Under the pieces are notes generated by a model. The model was given only the letters and a program-made list of their open reading frames with translations. It made no database searches and was not told the origin of the DNA. Of a stretch of 64,000 nucleotides of DNA, positions 47,336 through 52,471 are shown piece by piece; position 1 is the first letter of the stretch, and every line of letters starts with the position of its first letter. A program made the translations under genes and the position numbers. The DNA is from Paracholeplasma manati (lineage in GTDB: Bacteria > Bacillota_I > Bacilli_A > Acholeplasmatales > UBA5453): positions 62,001 through 126,000 of the forward strand of contig NZ_JAOVQM010000004.1 of NCBI RefSeq assembly GCF_025742995.1, in the 5' to 3' direction.

Positions 47336-47375
47336 AAAAAAGATGTGAGAAACGAAATATTCTCACATCTTTTTT
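47336..47375 (+). terminator. Strong Rho-independent terminator
   Basis: AAAAAAGATGTGAGAA (47336-47351) pairs with TTCTCACATCTTTTTT (47360-47375), a 16-bp perfect stem. It ends the six-gene ftsK operon. Confidence 0.9.
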
Positions 47376-47477: not shown

Positions 47478-49481
47478 ATGAGTATCCAAACCCCTTATGA
47501 GTTTATCAAATTGCATCAGATTGGTCCGATCAAAGTCGATGAAGCATTGTTATTCAATGGTTATTTATACTATTCGGATAAATCGACTATTTTGATTGAT
47601 TTACCAACTTCAGAATGGATGAGCCAATACAAAGAACGCATTGAACTCATCATTCCTGTTGACTCTATTCAAAATTTAATCATCGCGCATCCGAATTTTT
47701 CAATGATGATGTCACTCAAAATCTTGATTCAAATGGGATTCAAGGGATCCATCATCACCACTAGAAATATCGCGAAGCAAATCGTTCAAAATGGCATCAA
47801 ACTGCCAGTAACCACCATTGAAAAACTCGATTATCAGTGGTATGGACAAGACTTTAAACTGAATTTTCTACCAATTCAGTTTTTACCCTTTACTTACGCA
47901 TTTATGATTTATGAGTCAGAAACCCGTTCGTTGATTTCGAATACCTTGTTTTCAAGTTTTAAAGTGGATAATCCTGCTGACTTGATACAACTTAAACAAG
48001 GGATTTTTGCCTATCATAAAACCAATTTTCCATCGTCAGAATATCTAAAAGACCCCATCCGACGCATCCGTCAACACCGAATTGATGCGATATGTCCATC
48101 GTATGGATACGTCTTAGAAAACGATGTCGATGGTTGGATCGAATATGAATATCAGTTGGATTTTTATAATGCTGGGCAAGTCTTTAAATACAATGAAGAG
48201 TTCATTAAAGAATTTAATTATGTGGAAATCATCAATCATATGATCAACCAATTACACAAGTCCTTAGACAGCAAAGAAATCTTGGATACTTTTGCAAAAT
48301 CTGACTTCATTTTGAGTGAAAAACCACTGGAATTGGTTCAATCTACCCATGTCGGCTACAAACTATGGCACGCCTTTTTCGAATACATTTACGCGAAAAA
48401 GGGCTCGGTCTGGTTAACCATTCTAGAACCATTAATCAAACGATATCACAATATTTTTGGTTTGGATTTACCAGCCATCTATGTGTCGAAAATGATGGAA
48501 GTCACCAAAACCAATGAATTATTGGCATTGGATAAAAAGACATTAGAAGAAAACCTACAAAGACTAGAAGCCCAAATCGAAGAAACCAAAGAAGCGATGC
48601 TTAGATGCCCAATCACGAAGCTATACACAGAAGATGTGATGCGAGCGTTGCTTAAAAAAGATCTAGAATCGTCTGAATTCTTTGAAAAACAAAATGGATT
48701 TATATTGATTCAACTGGATCAATTGTTTGACATTAACAAGCGTTATGGTAAAGATACTGGAGATGAAGCGATTCGAAATCTCGCTTATGTCATTGGACAA
48801 ATCGCACCAGATTCAGTGAAGTTATTCAAACAAAATGGGCCAGGTATCTTGGTTTATGCTTCTTGTGAGAAGAAGGAAAAAATCACAGAATTTGCTGTTT
48901 CTGTACGAAATGCAGTCAGGGATTCCGTATTATTTATCGAAAAAGTCACAGCAAGTGCGTCTCTCGTCTTTTATGAAGAATTGAACCCTGTGTTGACACG
49001 TGATAATAAAATCAAAGAAATATTCATTCTACTCGAACAACGAATTCGCTTAGCAAAACAGCTGGGCTATGGGGAAATTGTTGACAACAGTGCCGCATTA
49101 CCAGCGCTTAAAGAAGGGATTATTCTCTTGGTTGATGAAGATGACATGAATCGTAATATGTTGGTTCGTGTGTTTAATCGTTTGAACTTTGAAGTCAAAG
49201 CAGTCACCTCAGTTGAGGATGCCCTCCATGTCTTAAGAGAATACCCAATTGACATCATCATCTCTGAAATCAATTTATCCAAGATGGATGGCTTCGCTTT
49301 AAAACGTGAACTCAATGAATCCAAAACATACACCAACATCCCGTTCATCATGGTTTCGCATAATAAGACCGTTGAAAACATCCGTCGTGGGAACTTGCTC
49401 AATGTGGATTTGATCATTGAAAAGCCTATCATTCCAGAAGAATTGATTGGACATGTCAAGCGCTATCGAGAAAGAAGGTAA
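47478..49481 (+). CDS. Degenerate MBL-GGDEF-receiver regulatory protein
   Basis: This 667-residue protein seems to have three parts. Residues 1-245 follow a metallo-beta-lactamase layout of the flavodiiron ODP type: LIDLPT, then IIAHPNFSMMM where HxExDH is expected, and ICPSYGYV where PSHG is expected, so the metal ligands are lost. Residues 370-530 follow a GGDEF domain, with FDINKRYGKDTGDEAIRNLA typical, but the GGDEF signature itself is NGPGI, so no cyclase activity is expected. Residues 547-667 form a receiver domain: VDEDD (552-556) and the late Lys in EKP are kept, but the phosphoacceptor Asp is Glu597 (ISEINLSKMDG). It is probably a sensor or binding protein. It starts 6 nt upstream of a glycosyltransferase locus. 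Confidence 0.7.
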   Translation: MSIQTPYEFIKLHQIGPIKVDEALLFNGYLYYSDKSTILIDLPTSEWMSQYKERIELIIPVDSIQNLIIAHPNFSMMMSLKILIQMGFKGSIITTRNIAKQIVQNGIKLPVTTIEKLDYQWYGQDFKLNFLPIQFLPFTYAFMIYESETRSLISNTLFSSFKVDNPADLIQLKQGIFAYHKTNFPSSEYLKDPIRRIRQHRIDAICPSYGYVLENDVDGWIEYEYQLDFYNAGQVFKYNEEFIKEFNYVEIINHMINQLHKSLDSKEILDTFAKSDFILSEKPLELVQSTHVGYKLWHAFFEYIYAKKGSVWLTILEPLIKRYHNIFGLDLPAIYVSKMMEVTKTNELLALDKKTLEENLQRLEAQIEETKEAMLRCPITKLYTEDVMRALLKKDLESSEFFEKQNGFILIQLDQLFDINKRYGKDTGDEAIRNLAYVIGQIAPDSVKLFKQNGPGILVYASCEKKEKITEFAVSVRNAVRDSVLFIEKVTASASLVFYEELNPVLTRDNKIKEIFILLEQRIRLAKQLGYGEIVDNSAALPALKEGIILLVDEDDMNRNMLVRVFNRLNFEVKAVTSVEDALHVLREYPIDIIISEINLSKMDGFALKRELNESKTYTNIPFIMVSHNKTVENIRRGNLLNVDLIIEKPIIPEELIGHVKRYRERR

Positions 49482-49487
49482 GACCGT

Positions 49488-50144
49488 ATGAACTTACCAA
49501 CTTTGATCACACTCATCGCTTTTTTAAGTTTGGTTTCCTTACTCATCGCGATGATTATTTTACAAAAAATCCATTACAAACGCCTCAGTAAAAAACACAT
49601 GTTGGCGCGTGATTATTTATTCAAAAAATACTTCGATTTAGAGGATGTTATGCCAAAAACATCGAGTCGATTCTTTTTTGACGCTTATATCGATATTGAA
49701 ACCCAAATCACCATTGAAGAGGTAGTTAGAAAACGCATCATTGATGATCTTGAGGCTTTAAAATTCACTCGAAAACAATTTAAAAAACTTCATAGTTTTT
49801 CACCATTTAAGCGCCGTGTAGCGGTATATTATCTCAACACGCTCAATACAAAACAATCGCGTGATGCTCTATCTAAACGTTTGACAGTTGAGAAAAACGA
49901 TTCCGTTCGTTTTTATATCATTTACGCCATTAAAGAACACATTACCCCATCAGATTTCGAGTTCATTTTACATACCCTTAACGCATCGAAAGCATCGTAT
50001 CCTCATTGGATTTACGCGATCTTAAAAAACCGATTTGAAGTCATTAAACCTTACCTCAATGACTACATCCATGATTCACGTAAGAAAGTGAAACAATTCT
50101 TTTTATACTTATCCAATCATATTTATAACGATCAATTGAAATAA
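49488..50144 (+). CDS. N-terminal part of an interrupted HEAT-repeat/GT2 protein
   Basis: This 218-residue reading frame has one membrane helix (about residues 5-27) and then charged helical repeats that look HEAT-like (for example KRRVAVYYLNTLNTKQSRDAL). It ends at a TAA (50142-50144). The same frame continues without further stop through 50145-50162 into the next coding segment, and the repeat pattern continues across the stop. The simplest reading is one gene broken by a nonsense codon. Function follows from the second part. The start follows the regulatory gene after 6 nt, with AAGGTAAGACC upstream. Confidence 0.65.
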   Translation: MNLPTLITLIAFLSLVSLLIAMIILQKIHYKRLSKKHMLARDYLFKKYFDLEDVMPKTSSRFFFDAYIDIETQITIEEVVRKRIIDDLEALKFTRKQFKKLHSFSPFKRRVAVYYLNTLNTKQSRDALSKRLTVEKNDSVRFYIIYAIKEHITPSDFEFILHTLNASKASYPHWIYAILKNRFEVIKPYLNDYIHDSRKKVKQFFLYLSNHIYNDQLK

Positions 50145-50162
50145 TACGCCATCGACCGTTTT

Positions 50163-52313
50163 ATGGATTTGAATGAGGATAAAGATATTCGAAAAGAAGC
50201 CATTCATGCACTCTCAAACATGTATCCTGAAGAATTGATCAACGACACTTATCTGTTACATAGCGATGAAGCCATCCGAAAGATGGCAATCCGTGCTTGT
50301 TCGACAGTTGTCAACAAAGAGATGACCCAAAACCTGTTGAATCAAATGGATGGGTCCATGATGGATATGGAACGTGCCAATGCGTTGTCTCGTATCGTAT
50401 TTGATTCGAAAAAGCTTCTGATTTATTTGTTAGAGTATTACCCATTAGCCGCGAATGACCATCAAAAGATGGCCATATCACGTGTGCTTTCACACCATTT
50501 AGACTATTTGACTTTAAAGTTAAAATCCCATGAGTACCCACAAGTCAAACTGATCATTCAGGACTTGTTAAAGATGCACATCACAGAAGACTTGATTGAT
50601 TTTATCAATATGAACAAAGACAAAGAAGTTGAGAATGACCTGATCAAAATCATCAAGACTTTCGCAACCCAAGATAAGTATTTATTGGATGAATTCAGTG
50701 TTTATTTGAATCAGACTGTACTCAACAAGTTGGGCCTAATTAAAAAACCACTGCCAACCTCCATCCGTGAAAAAACCCCATTCGAATTGAACAAGGTGGT
50801 ATGGATCAGTTTTTGGATCTCAATCGCAGTAACACTATTCCCTATTTTATTCTTAATATTGAATTTTAGACTCGTATTATCAGGGGAACCCCTATTAGAA
50901 ATCTTTATGGTCAACATGAACCGATACTTGTCATATTACTTTATCGTTATCAACACGATTTATCTGATTTTGATGTTATTTTCCATCAAAGGATCTGTTG
51001 AGCGTATGGCCATGTGGCGAATCAAAAAACAAACGCTCTTGTTTGAACATGATTTATTGCCATCCATTTCGATTATTGCGCCAGCTTACAATGAAGAAAA
51101 AAGCATCATTGAAAGTATCACTTCATTGCTGAATCTCAAATACCCTAAATATGAAGTCATCGTTGTCAATGATGGATCAAAAGACGACACCATTGGGACC
51201 TTGGTAAGGCATTTTGAAATGGAACGAAAACACCCCTTCTTTCAAATGAAACTGAGAACCAAACCATTGAGAAGTGTGTATGTGTGTAAGCAAATTCCGA
51301 ACCTGATTGTCATCGACAAACAAAATGGTGGGAAAGCGGATGCGTTAAATATGGGTATCAACGCTGCAAAGAATGACTATATATGCGGGATTGATGCGGA
51401 CTCCTTATTGGAAGAAGATGCATTATTGAAATTGATGAGCATCACTTTAGATGACGCAACCAACCATATCGCGATTGGAGGAAACATCGTTCCTGTCAAT
51501 GGCTGTAACGTGGATAAAGGTAAGATTGAAAAGAGCGGATTAGGTAAAAACCCAATCGTTCGTTTTCAAACATTAGAATACTTAAGAGCGTTTACGACAG
51601 GTCGTATTGGGTGGTCAAAACTCAATAGCCTACTCATCATCTCTGGTGCGTTTGGTCTATTCAACAGACGTTCGCTTATCGACACCGGTGGGTATCTCAC
51701 CATCAGTGGGGATTTAAAGAAAGACACCGTTGGTGAGGACATGGAACTGGTCGTCAGGTTGACGCACAAAGCCATTCAAAATAAACAACCGTATCGTGTT
51801 GCTTATGTCCACAATGCCAACTGTTATACAGAACTGCCTTCCGACATGCGCTCTTTATTAAAACAGCGCAATCGTTGGCAACGTGGTTTATTGGACATCT
51901 TGAGTTACCATCGACAAATGTTGTTTAACCCTAAGTACCGTCAACCGGGACTATTGGGCTTCCCTTATTTCTTCATCTTTGAAATGATGGGACCGTTCAT
52001 TGAAATGTTGGGTTATATTGCGTTATTTGCGTCCTTATTCATTGGTATTTTGAATTTTGAACTGGTCGTCTTGTTATTTTACGCGAGTATCGGTTATGGC
52101 ATTTTGATTTCACTCTTCAGTTTGTGGATTTCAGAACGTCAAAGTGGCTTTTACCGCATTTGGGATGCCATCATATTAATTATATTGGCGATTGCAGAAA
52201 ACTTTGGCTATCGTCAAATCATGAGTTTACATCGTGTCAGAGCAACCTTCGCTGCCCTTCGTGAAAATGGGTCTTGGGGTAGTCTGTCGAGAACAGGTTT
52301 TCAAAAGAAGTGA
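50163..52313 (+). CDS. C-terminal part: HEAT repeats plus processive GT2 glycosyltransferase
   Basis: From the first ATG after the TAA this segment codes 716 residues. Residues 1-190 are HEAT-like repeats, followed by two membrane helices (about 216-240 and 255-275) and a GT2 domain (300-545) with IIAPAYNEEKS, VNDGSKDDT, GIDADSL (about residue 410), TVGEDMEL and the QxxRW box QRNRWQRG. C-terminal helices form the rest of a channel, as in PgaC/BcsA-type synthases. It probably builds and exports a polysaccharide. No ribosome-binding site precedes the ATG, so if it is expressed alone, re-initiation or stop read-through would be needed. A terminator overlaps its stop. Confidence 0.8.
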   Translation: MDLNEDKDIRKEAIHALSNMYPEELINDTYLLHSDEAIRKMAIRACSTVVNKEMTQNLLNQMDGSMMDMERANALSRIVFDSKKLLIYLLEYYPLAANDHQKMAISRVLSHHLDYLTLKLKSHEYPQVKLIIQDLLKMHITEDLIDFINMNKDKEVENDLIKIIKTFATQDKYLLDEFSVYLNQTVLNKLGLIKKPLPTSIREKTPFELNKVVWISFWISIAVTLFPILFLILNFRLVLSGEPLLEIFMVNMNRYLSYYFIVINTIYLILMLFSIKGSVERMAMWRIKKQTLLFEHDLLPSISIIAPAYNEEKSIIESITSLLNLKYPKYEVIVVNDGSKDDTIGTLVRHFEMERKHPFFQMKLRTKPLRSVYVCKQIPNLIVIDKQNGGKADALNMGINAAKNDYICGIDADSLLEEDALLKLMSITLDDATNHIAIGGNIVPVNGCNVDKGKIEKSGLGKNPIVRFQTLEYLRAFTTGRIGWSKLNSLLIISGAFGLFNRRSLIDTGGYLTISGDLKKDTVGEDMELVVRLTHKAIQNKQPYRVAYVHNANCYTELPSDMRSLLKQRNRWQRGLLDILSYHRQMLFNPKYRQPGLLGFPYFFIFEMMGPFIEMLGYIALFASLFIGILNFELVVLLFYASIGYGILISLFSLWISERQSGFYRIWDAIILIILAIAENFGYRQIMSLHRVRATFAALRENGSWGSLSRTGFQKK

Positions 52314-52442: not shown

Positions 52443-52471
52443 TTGACAGGCCTTGAACACATATATATAAT
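52443..52471 (+). promoter_or_regulatory. topA promoter, full consensus
   Basis: TTGACA (52443-52448) and TATAAT (52466-52471) are exactly 17 bp apart, both hexamers perfect, 27 nt before the topA ATG. The upstream 100 bases are very A+T-rich with TATATA runs, which fits a strong, possibly supercoiling-sensitive promoter. Confidence 0.85.

Follow-up and report, generated by a model that had tools for sequence, protein, structure and literature searches.

Why would a bacterium keep, directly beside the gene for a polysaccharide synthase, a gene for a protein built of three signalling folds that all appear to be inactive? The question is raised by a two-gene module of Paracholeplasma manati, located in a stretch of 64,000 nucleotides (the window). 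The first gene encodes an ODP-GGDEF-receiver protein, here called the regulator, and the second encodes a processive family 2 glycosyltransferase (GT2) with an N-terminal HEAT superhelix. It appears somewhat more probable than not that the regulator is a dedicated non-catalytic subunit that docks on the synthase and gates it, with the ODP domain as its ancestral input. That the two proteins are functionally paired, taken alone, is very likely.

The original prediction had described three inactive-looking signalling folds next to a GT2 synthase, and it held up in this respect. The folds were recovered by Pfam, by an AlphaFold2 (AF2) model and by a search of PDB folds, and each has lost active-site residues in the window protein. 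The Pfam matches, which all exceed the curated cut-offs, are to ODP (PF19583; 1.8e-15, residues 26-210), GGDEF (2.8e-07, residues 378-481) and Response_reg (5.8e-18, residues 549-660). In Foldseek, the nearest PDB folds of the AF2 model (pLDDT 83.9) are ODP, then flavodiiron proteins and GGDEF cyclases, and the top match is a solved ODP, 6qrq (E 1.4e-12, prob 1.0). The first domain had been named only as a metallo-beta-lactamase (MBL) fold; it has, more exactly, the ODP/flavodiiron MBL fold of the ODP oxygen-sensor family. Its metal ligands are lost as predicted. Of the six diiron ligands (H-x-[DE]-x-D, H, D, H) only H71 is left, the positions reading H,N,S / P / T / Y. The same fold is found in the ODP of Treponema denticola and Thermotoga maritima (6qrq, 6qnm, 6r9n), which serves in signalling as an O2 sensor (PMC7666581). 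The known ODP acts with a chemoreceptor, whereas here it is fused to a GGDEF-receiver part and paired with a synthase.

The regulator was compared with 45 homologues. The GGDEF signature is lost in 45/45, and the receiver phosphosite is Glu in 44/45. Because of this, the degeneracies of these two domains are ancient and conserved. The window protein reads NGPGI in place of GG[DE]EF and has Gln for the first metal Asp, and is thus not a diguanylate cyclase by its residues; in the group that has lost the iron ligands, the signature position reads x-GPG with almost no exceptions. The receiver lacks the phosphorylatable Asp, as had been noticed for Glu597, and belongs with the aspartate-less (pseudo-)receivers, in which Glu is the commonest Asp replacement (PMC4395418, PMC12632262). 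It has their fold and substitution, but as a constant part of an ODP-GGDEF fusion whose gene always adjoins that of a synthase. The switch Ser/Thr and Lys are almost always kept, and the conserved Glu fits the suggestion that it mimics phospho-Asp.

It had been allowed that homologues with intact motifs might reveal a misalignment. For the GGDEF domain none was found (0/45 with an intact signature). For the ODP domain there are ten that keep all six ligands: three Acetobacterium, two other Clostridia/Bacillota, Fibrobacterota, Sphaerochaeta, and three genomes from the window's own class (Bacilli). In an Acetobacterium homologue the match to the oxygen-binding diiron protein reaches 1.6e-30, and the ligand motifs align. 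Since such relatives exist, the degeneracy of the ODP is lineage-specific, while that of the GGDEF and receiver domains is ancestral. A tree of the synthase, whose sequence is independent of the ODP, places the ligand-lost forms inside the intact forms with at least two losses, within the Mollicutes-like part; it is a quick tree and some of its forks are weak. Three loci (L059, L069 and L071) are without the ODP part and retain the GGDEF-receiver and the HEAT-GT2. Domain conservation is also reversed between the groups. The ODP is the best conserved domain in the intact-ODP relatives (mean identity 0.51) and the worst in the ligand-lost group (0.33), where the receiver is best (0.62). The ODP can thus be read as a sensor that works where its ligands are intact, and the GGDEF-receiver part as a constant core serving the synthase. 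A diiron oxygen-sensing domain is likewise joined to GGDEF in the hemerythrin-GGDEF (Bhr-DGC) oxygen sensors (PMC9388753), but there the diiron fold is another one and the GGDEF is active.

A degenerate GGDEF protein is also encoded with a polysaccharide glycosyltransferase in Listeria pssA-E and Bacillus ydaJKLMN (PssE, YdaK), and likewise in the case of PelD. The likeness to ydaJKLMN that had been drawn is real as a gene pairing and weak as a mechanism. If the regulator were a receptor of this kind, cyclic di-GMP (c-di-GMP) on the degenerate GGDEF would switch the synthase on, a principle known from PssE and PelD, which bind c-di-GMP through an RxxD I-site (PMC4125290, PMC7112168). This motif, five residues before the signature, is absent in 44/45 homologues, the window protein included, so the PssE/PelD mechanism is unsupported and an I-site receptor of that type was rejected by sequence. 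The catalytic site is also without metal ligands, and the module is built differently: it has a receiver and an ODP in addition, and its GT2 carries a HEAT part. The positions of the Asn and Asp that contact guanine, in turn, are kept in the window protein and mostly kept among the homologues, and c-di-GMP is probably present in the cells, because the window's genome has 21 GGDEF and 4 EAL matches and a PAS-GGDEF gene can follow the synthase. Acholeplasma laidlawii has 14 GGDEF/EAL-type proteins (PMC2408644). In seven loci of one sub-group (L048:10775-11719, L049, L050, L226, L229, L230 and L234, some being the same genomes in two collections), the PAS-GGDEF gene comes immediately after the synthase. 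All four of these genes that were read (4/4) have their GG(D/E)E signature intact, with Met or Ile as the last residue, and KxxD stands at the I-site position in the three checked. On balance, a c-di-GMP receptor of the YdaK/PssE/PelD kind seems unlikely.

The second locus had been described as a HEAT-repeat GT2 synthase, which is correct, but an in-frame TAA that splits the gene had been missed. The open reading frames at 49488-50144 and 50163-52313 share one frame that is interrupted by this single stop, and intact relatives have one synthase frame (about 941-960 residues in the order, up to 1010 in Acetobacterium). The AF2 model (pLDDT 87.1, pTM 0.85) contains a HEAT superhelix of about 355 residues that is cytoplasmic by the model and is a candidate docking surface; a HEAT_2 match (3.7e-09) was found in the Acetobacterium-type homologue L062. 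The motifs NDGS, DxD (GIDADS), GED and QxxRW are invariant among the homologues. Together with the membrane helices of the model and the Foldseek matches, they identify a processive GT2 whose fold is nearest to hyaluronan synthase and then to cellulose and chitin synthases. The PgaC/IcaA equivalog (NCBIfam TIGR03937) was the best partial match, at 122 bits against a cut-off of 422. The GT2 core, QxxRW and membrane topology are shared with PgaC/IcaA and with the hyaluronan, chitin and cellulose synthases; the module's enzyme differs from them by its N-terminal HEAT superhelix and its obligate pseudo-signalling partner.

The stop raises the question of whether the module is a decaying relic that is being lost, with a regulator that does nothing. 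The regulator is also split into two frames, beside an intact synthase, in G003 (L037:7337-9341, break within the ODP) and G115 (L229:4489-6516, break near the GGDEF start), and two genomes of the same genus, G002 and G005, are without the module. However, both frames are intact in G159, a genome assigned to the same species (97.5% DNA identity). It reads CAA at the stop position, so the stop at 50142-50144 is not fixed in the species and is due to polymorphism among strains or to an error in the consensus. Between the two regulators there are 27 synonymous and 3 replacement codons, with no amino-acid replacement in the GGDEF and receiver domains, and dN/dS is 0.045 for this one pair; the congeneric genome G004 was too diverged for an estimate of dS. 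Identical degenerate motifs are invariant across large divergence. Because of the low dN/dS and the conserved degenerate motifs, it can be stated that purifying selection maintains the non-catalytic regulator. Given this selection, simple decay can be rejected for the family, and decay as an account of the module is quite improbable.

What the regulator is kept for can be inferred from its neighbour. A search for the fusion beside GT2 genes, which had been suggested as a check, found regulator and HEAT-GT2 adjacent and co-directional wherever the contig continues (12/12 in one locus set, and likewise in L048-L071 and in all uncut loci of a third set). The pairing spans Mollicutes-like Bacilli, Clostridia, Fibrobacterota and Spirochaetota. 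The common overlap of the two genes is 4 nt; in the window, the synthase starts 6 nt after the regulator gene ends. Of 160 genomes in the order, 28 have the regulator and 28 have the synthase; both are present in 27 and neither in 131 (Fisher p 3e-28, uncorrected for kinship). The only two exceptions, G111 and G108, are fragments cut by contig ends. Near-identical copies of the module occur in G001 (L038) and G063 (L039), which belong to different families and have different flanks, so the two genes have recently been transferred as a unit. The domains are in common with those of independent response regulators, as they would be in a stand-alone signalling hub with an incidental neighbour. With 27 of 27 intact co-occurrences adjacent and the pair transferred as a unit between families, such a hub is extremely improbable.

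The arrangement proposed here is that of a two-partner module. One partner would be the membrane synthase with its cytoplasmic HEAT superhelix. The GGDEF-receiver half of the other would bind it, probably at the HEAT part, and hold or gate it. The receiver would be fixed in one conformation by its Glu, without phosphorylation, and the dead GGDEF could be a dimer or nucleotide-sensing element. The ancestral diiron ODP would have fed an oxygen or iron signal into this core, and elsewhere may still do so; in the window's lineage, the fold would be left as a spacer or protein-contact domain after loss of the iron site. A wider view, put forward tentatively and with somewhat less confidence, is that surface-polymer systems of an undescribed class, spread over several phyla, have an O2- or iron-sensing ODP that controls a HEAT-GT2 by direct protein contact. 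The contact would be made by a GGDEF and a receiver whose chemistry had already been lost in a common ancestor. Later, in bacteria without a wall, the iron of the sensor would have been lost as well, and the contact module would have stayed essential.

The product is probably a surface polymer containing N-acetylglucosamine (GlcNAc), made by a GlcNAc-using synthase. This is the best guess because genes like glmS, glmM and glmU (named from sequence; UDP-GlcNAc pathway) stand directly upstream of the module in four genomes, and because PgaC/IcaA is the best partial match.

Several points weigh against the proposal. Regulator-synthase contact, gating, ligand and product are all inferred. A Glu does not mimic phospho-Asp in every case (PMC12632262). 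With its premature stop, the module may be non-functional in this strain. The substrate is deduced from neighbours in only four genomes, and a glucan is hinted at by a GH16 gene (L062:4373-5074) that directly precedes the module in one locus of the Acetobacterium type.

The fusion had been thought to be absent from described systems, and a search of open papers, outside of which most subscription papers lie, found no relevant literature on HEAT-GT2-GGDEF or flavodiiron/MBL-GGDEF fusions. The two genes appear to form a sensor-to-synthase switch not described before, with a sensor that is dead in the window's lineage. The natural series of intact sensor, dead sensor and no sensor around a constant core makes the effect of the pseudo-GGDEF and Glu-receiver on the synthase directly testable. 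It also points to a link between oxygen sensing and the making of polysaccharide in anaerobes such as Acetobacterium, and to a regulated surface polymer in the Acholeplasma group of bacteria.

The features of the locus are collected in Table 1. The module is probably transcribed on its own, separately from the upstream GDPD gene, because the inverted repeat between them ends T-rich.

Table 1. Features of the module and of an adjoining gene family (window positions, unless a locus or genome is named).
Feature	Position	Strand	Basis
16-bp inverted repeat, T-rich ends, between upstream GDPD gene and module	47336..47375	.	Pattern scan, consensus match only
ODP-GGDEF-receiver protein, whole gene, 667 residues	47478..49481	+	ORF, Pfam, AF2, Foldseek
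ODP (diiron MBL) domain, residues ~10-245, iron ligands lost	47505..48212	+	Pfam, Foldseek, ligand table
HPNFS (71-75), remnant of H-x-[DE]-x-D; HQDPD in intact relatives	47688..47702	+	
Linker, residues 246-375, mostly helical	48213..48602	+	AF2 model
Degenerate GGDEF domain, residues 376-535	48603..49082	+	Pfam
NGPGI (453-457) at signature position	48834..48848	+	
Pseudo-receiver domain, residues 547-667	49116..49478	+	Pfam
Glu597 at receiver phosphosite (ISEINL)	49266..49268	+	
HEAT-GT2 synthase, single 941-residue frame broken by stop	49488..52313	+	
HEAT-type helical superhelix, residues 60-415	49665..50732	+	AF2 model
In-frame TAA splitting HEAT-GT2	50142..50144	+	
GT2 catalytic domain	51066..51836	+	Pfam 9.7e-25
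QRNRW (QxxRW), processive GT2 synthase motif	51864..51878	+	
Secreted or lipoprotein-like family	L062:10136-13300, L064, L065, L061, L066:2526-5765, L068:5585-8425		
Shorter form of this family, window's genome	G000:C3:1463-3502 (L256:1421-3511)		

In the AF2 model, the final long helix of the linker (333-375) resembles the stalk that precedes GGDEF domains. A secreted or lipoprotein-like family adjoins the module in intact-ODP genomes. Pfam and PDB profile searches gave no match for it; an AEFG motif makes it possibly glycoside-hydrolase-like. It is present in 9/160 genomes of the order, of which seven carry the module (Fisher p 7e-5, uncorrected for kinship). A perfect consensus promoter (TTGACA-17-TATAAT) is located at 52443-52471 of the window, just 5' of topA, the gene after the module.

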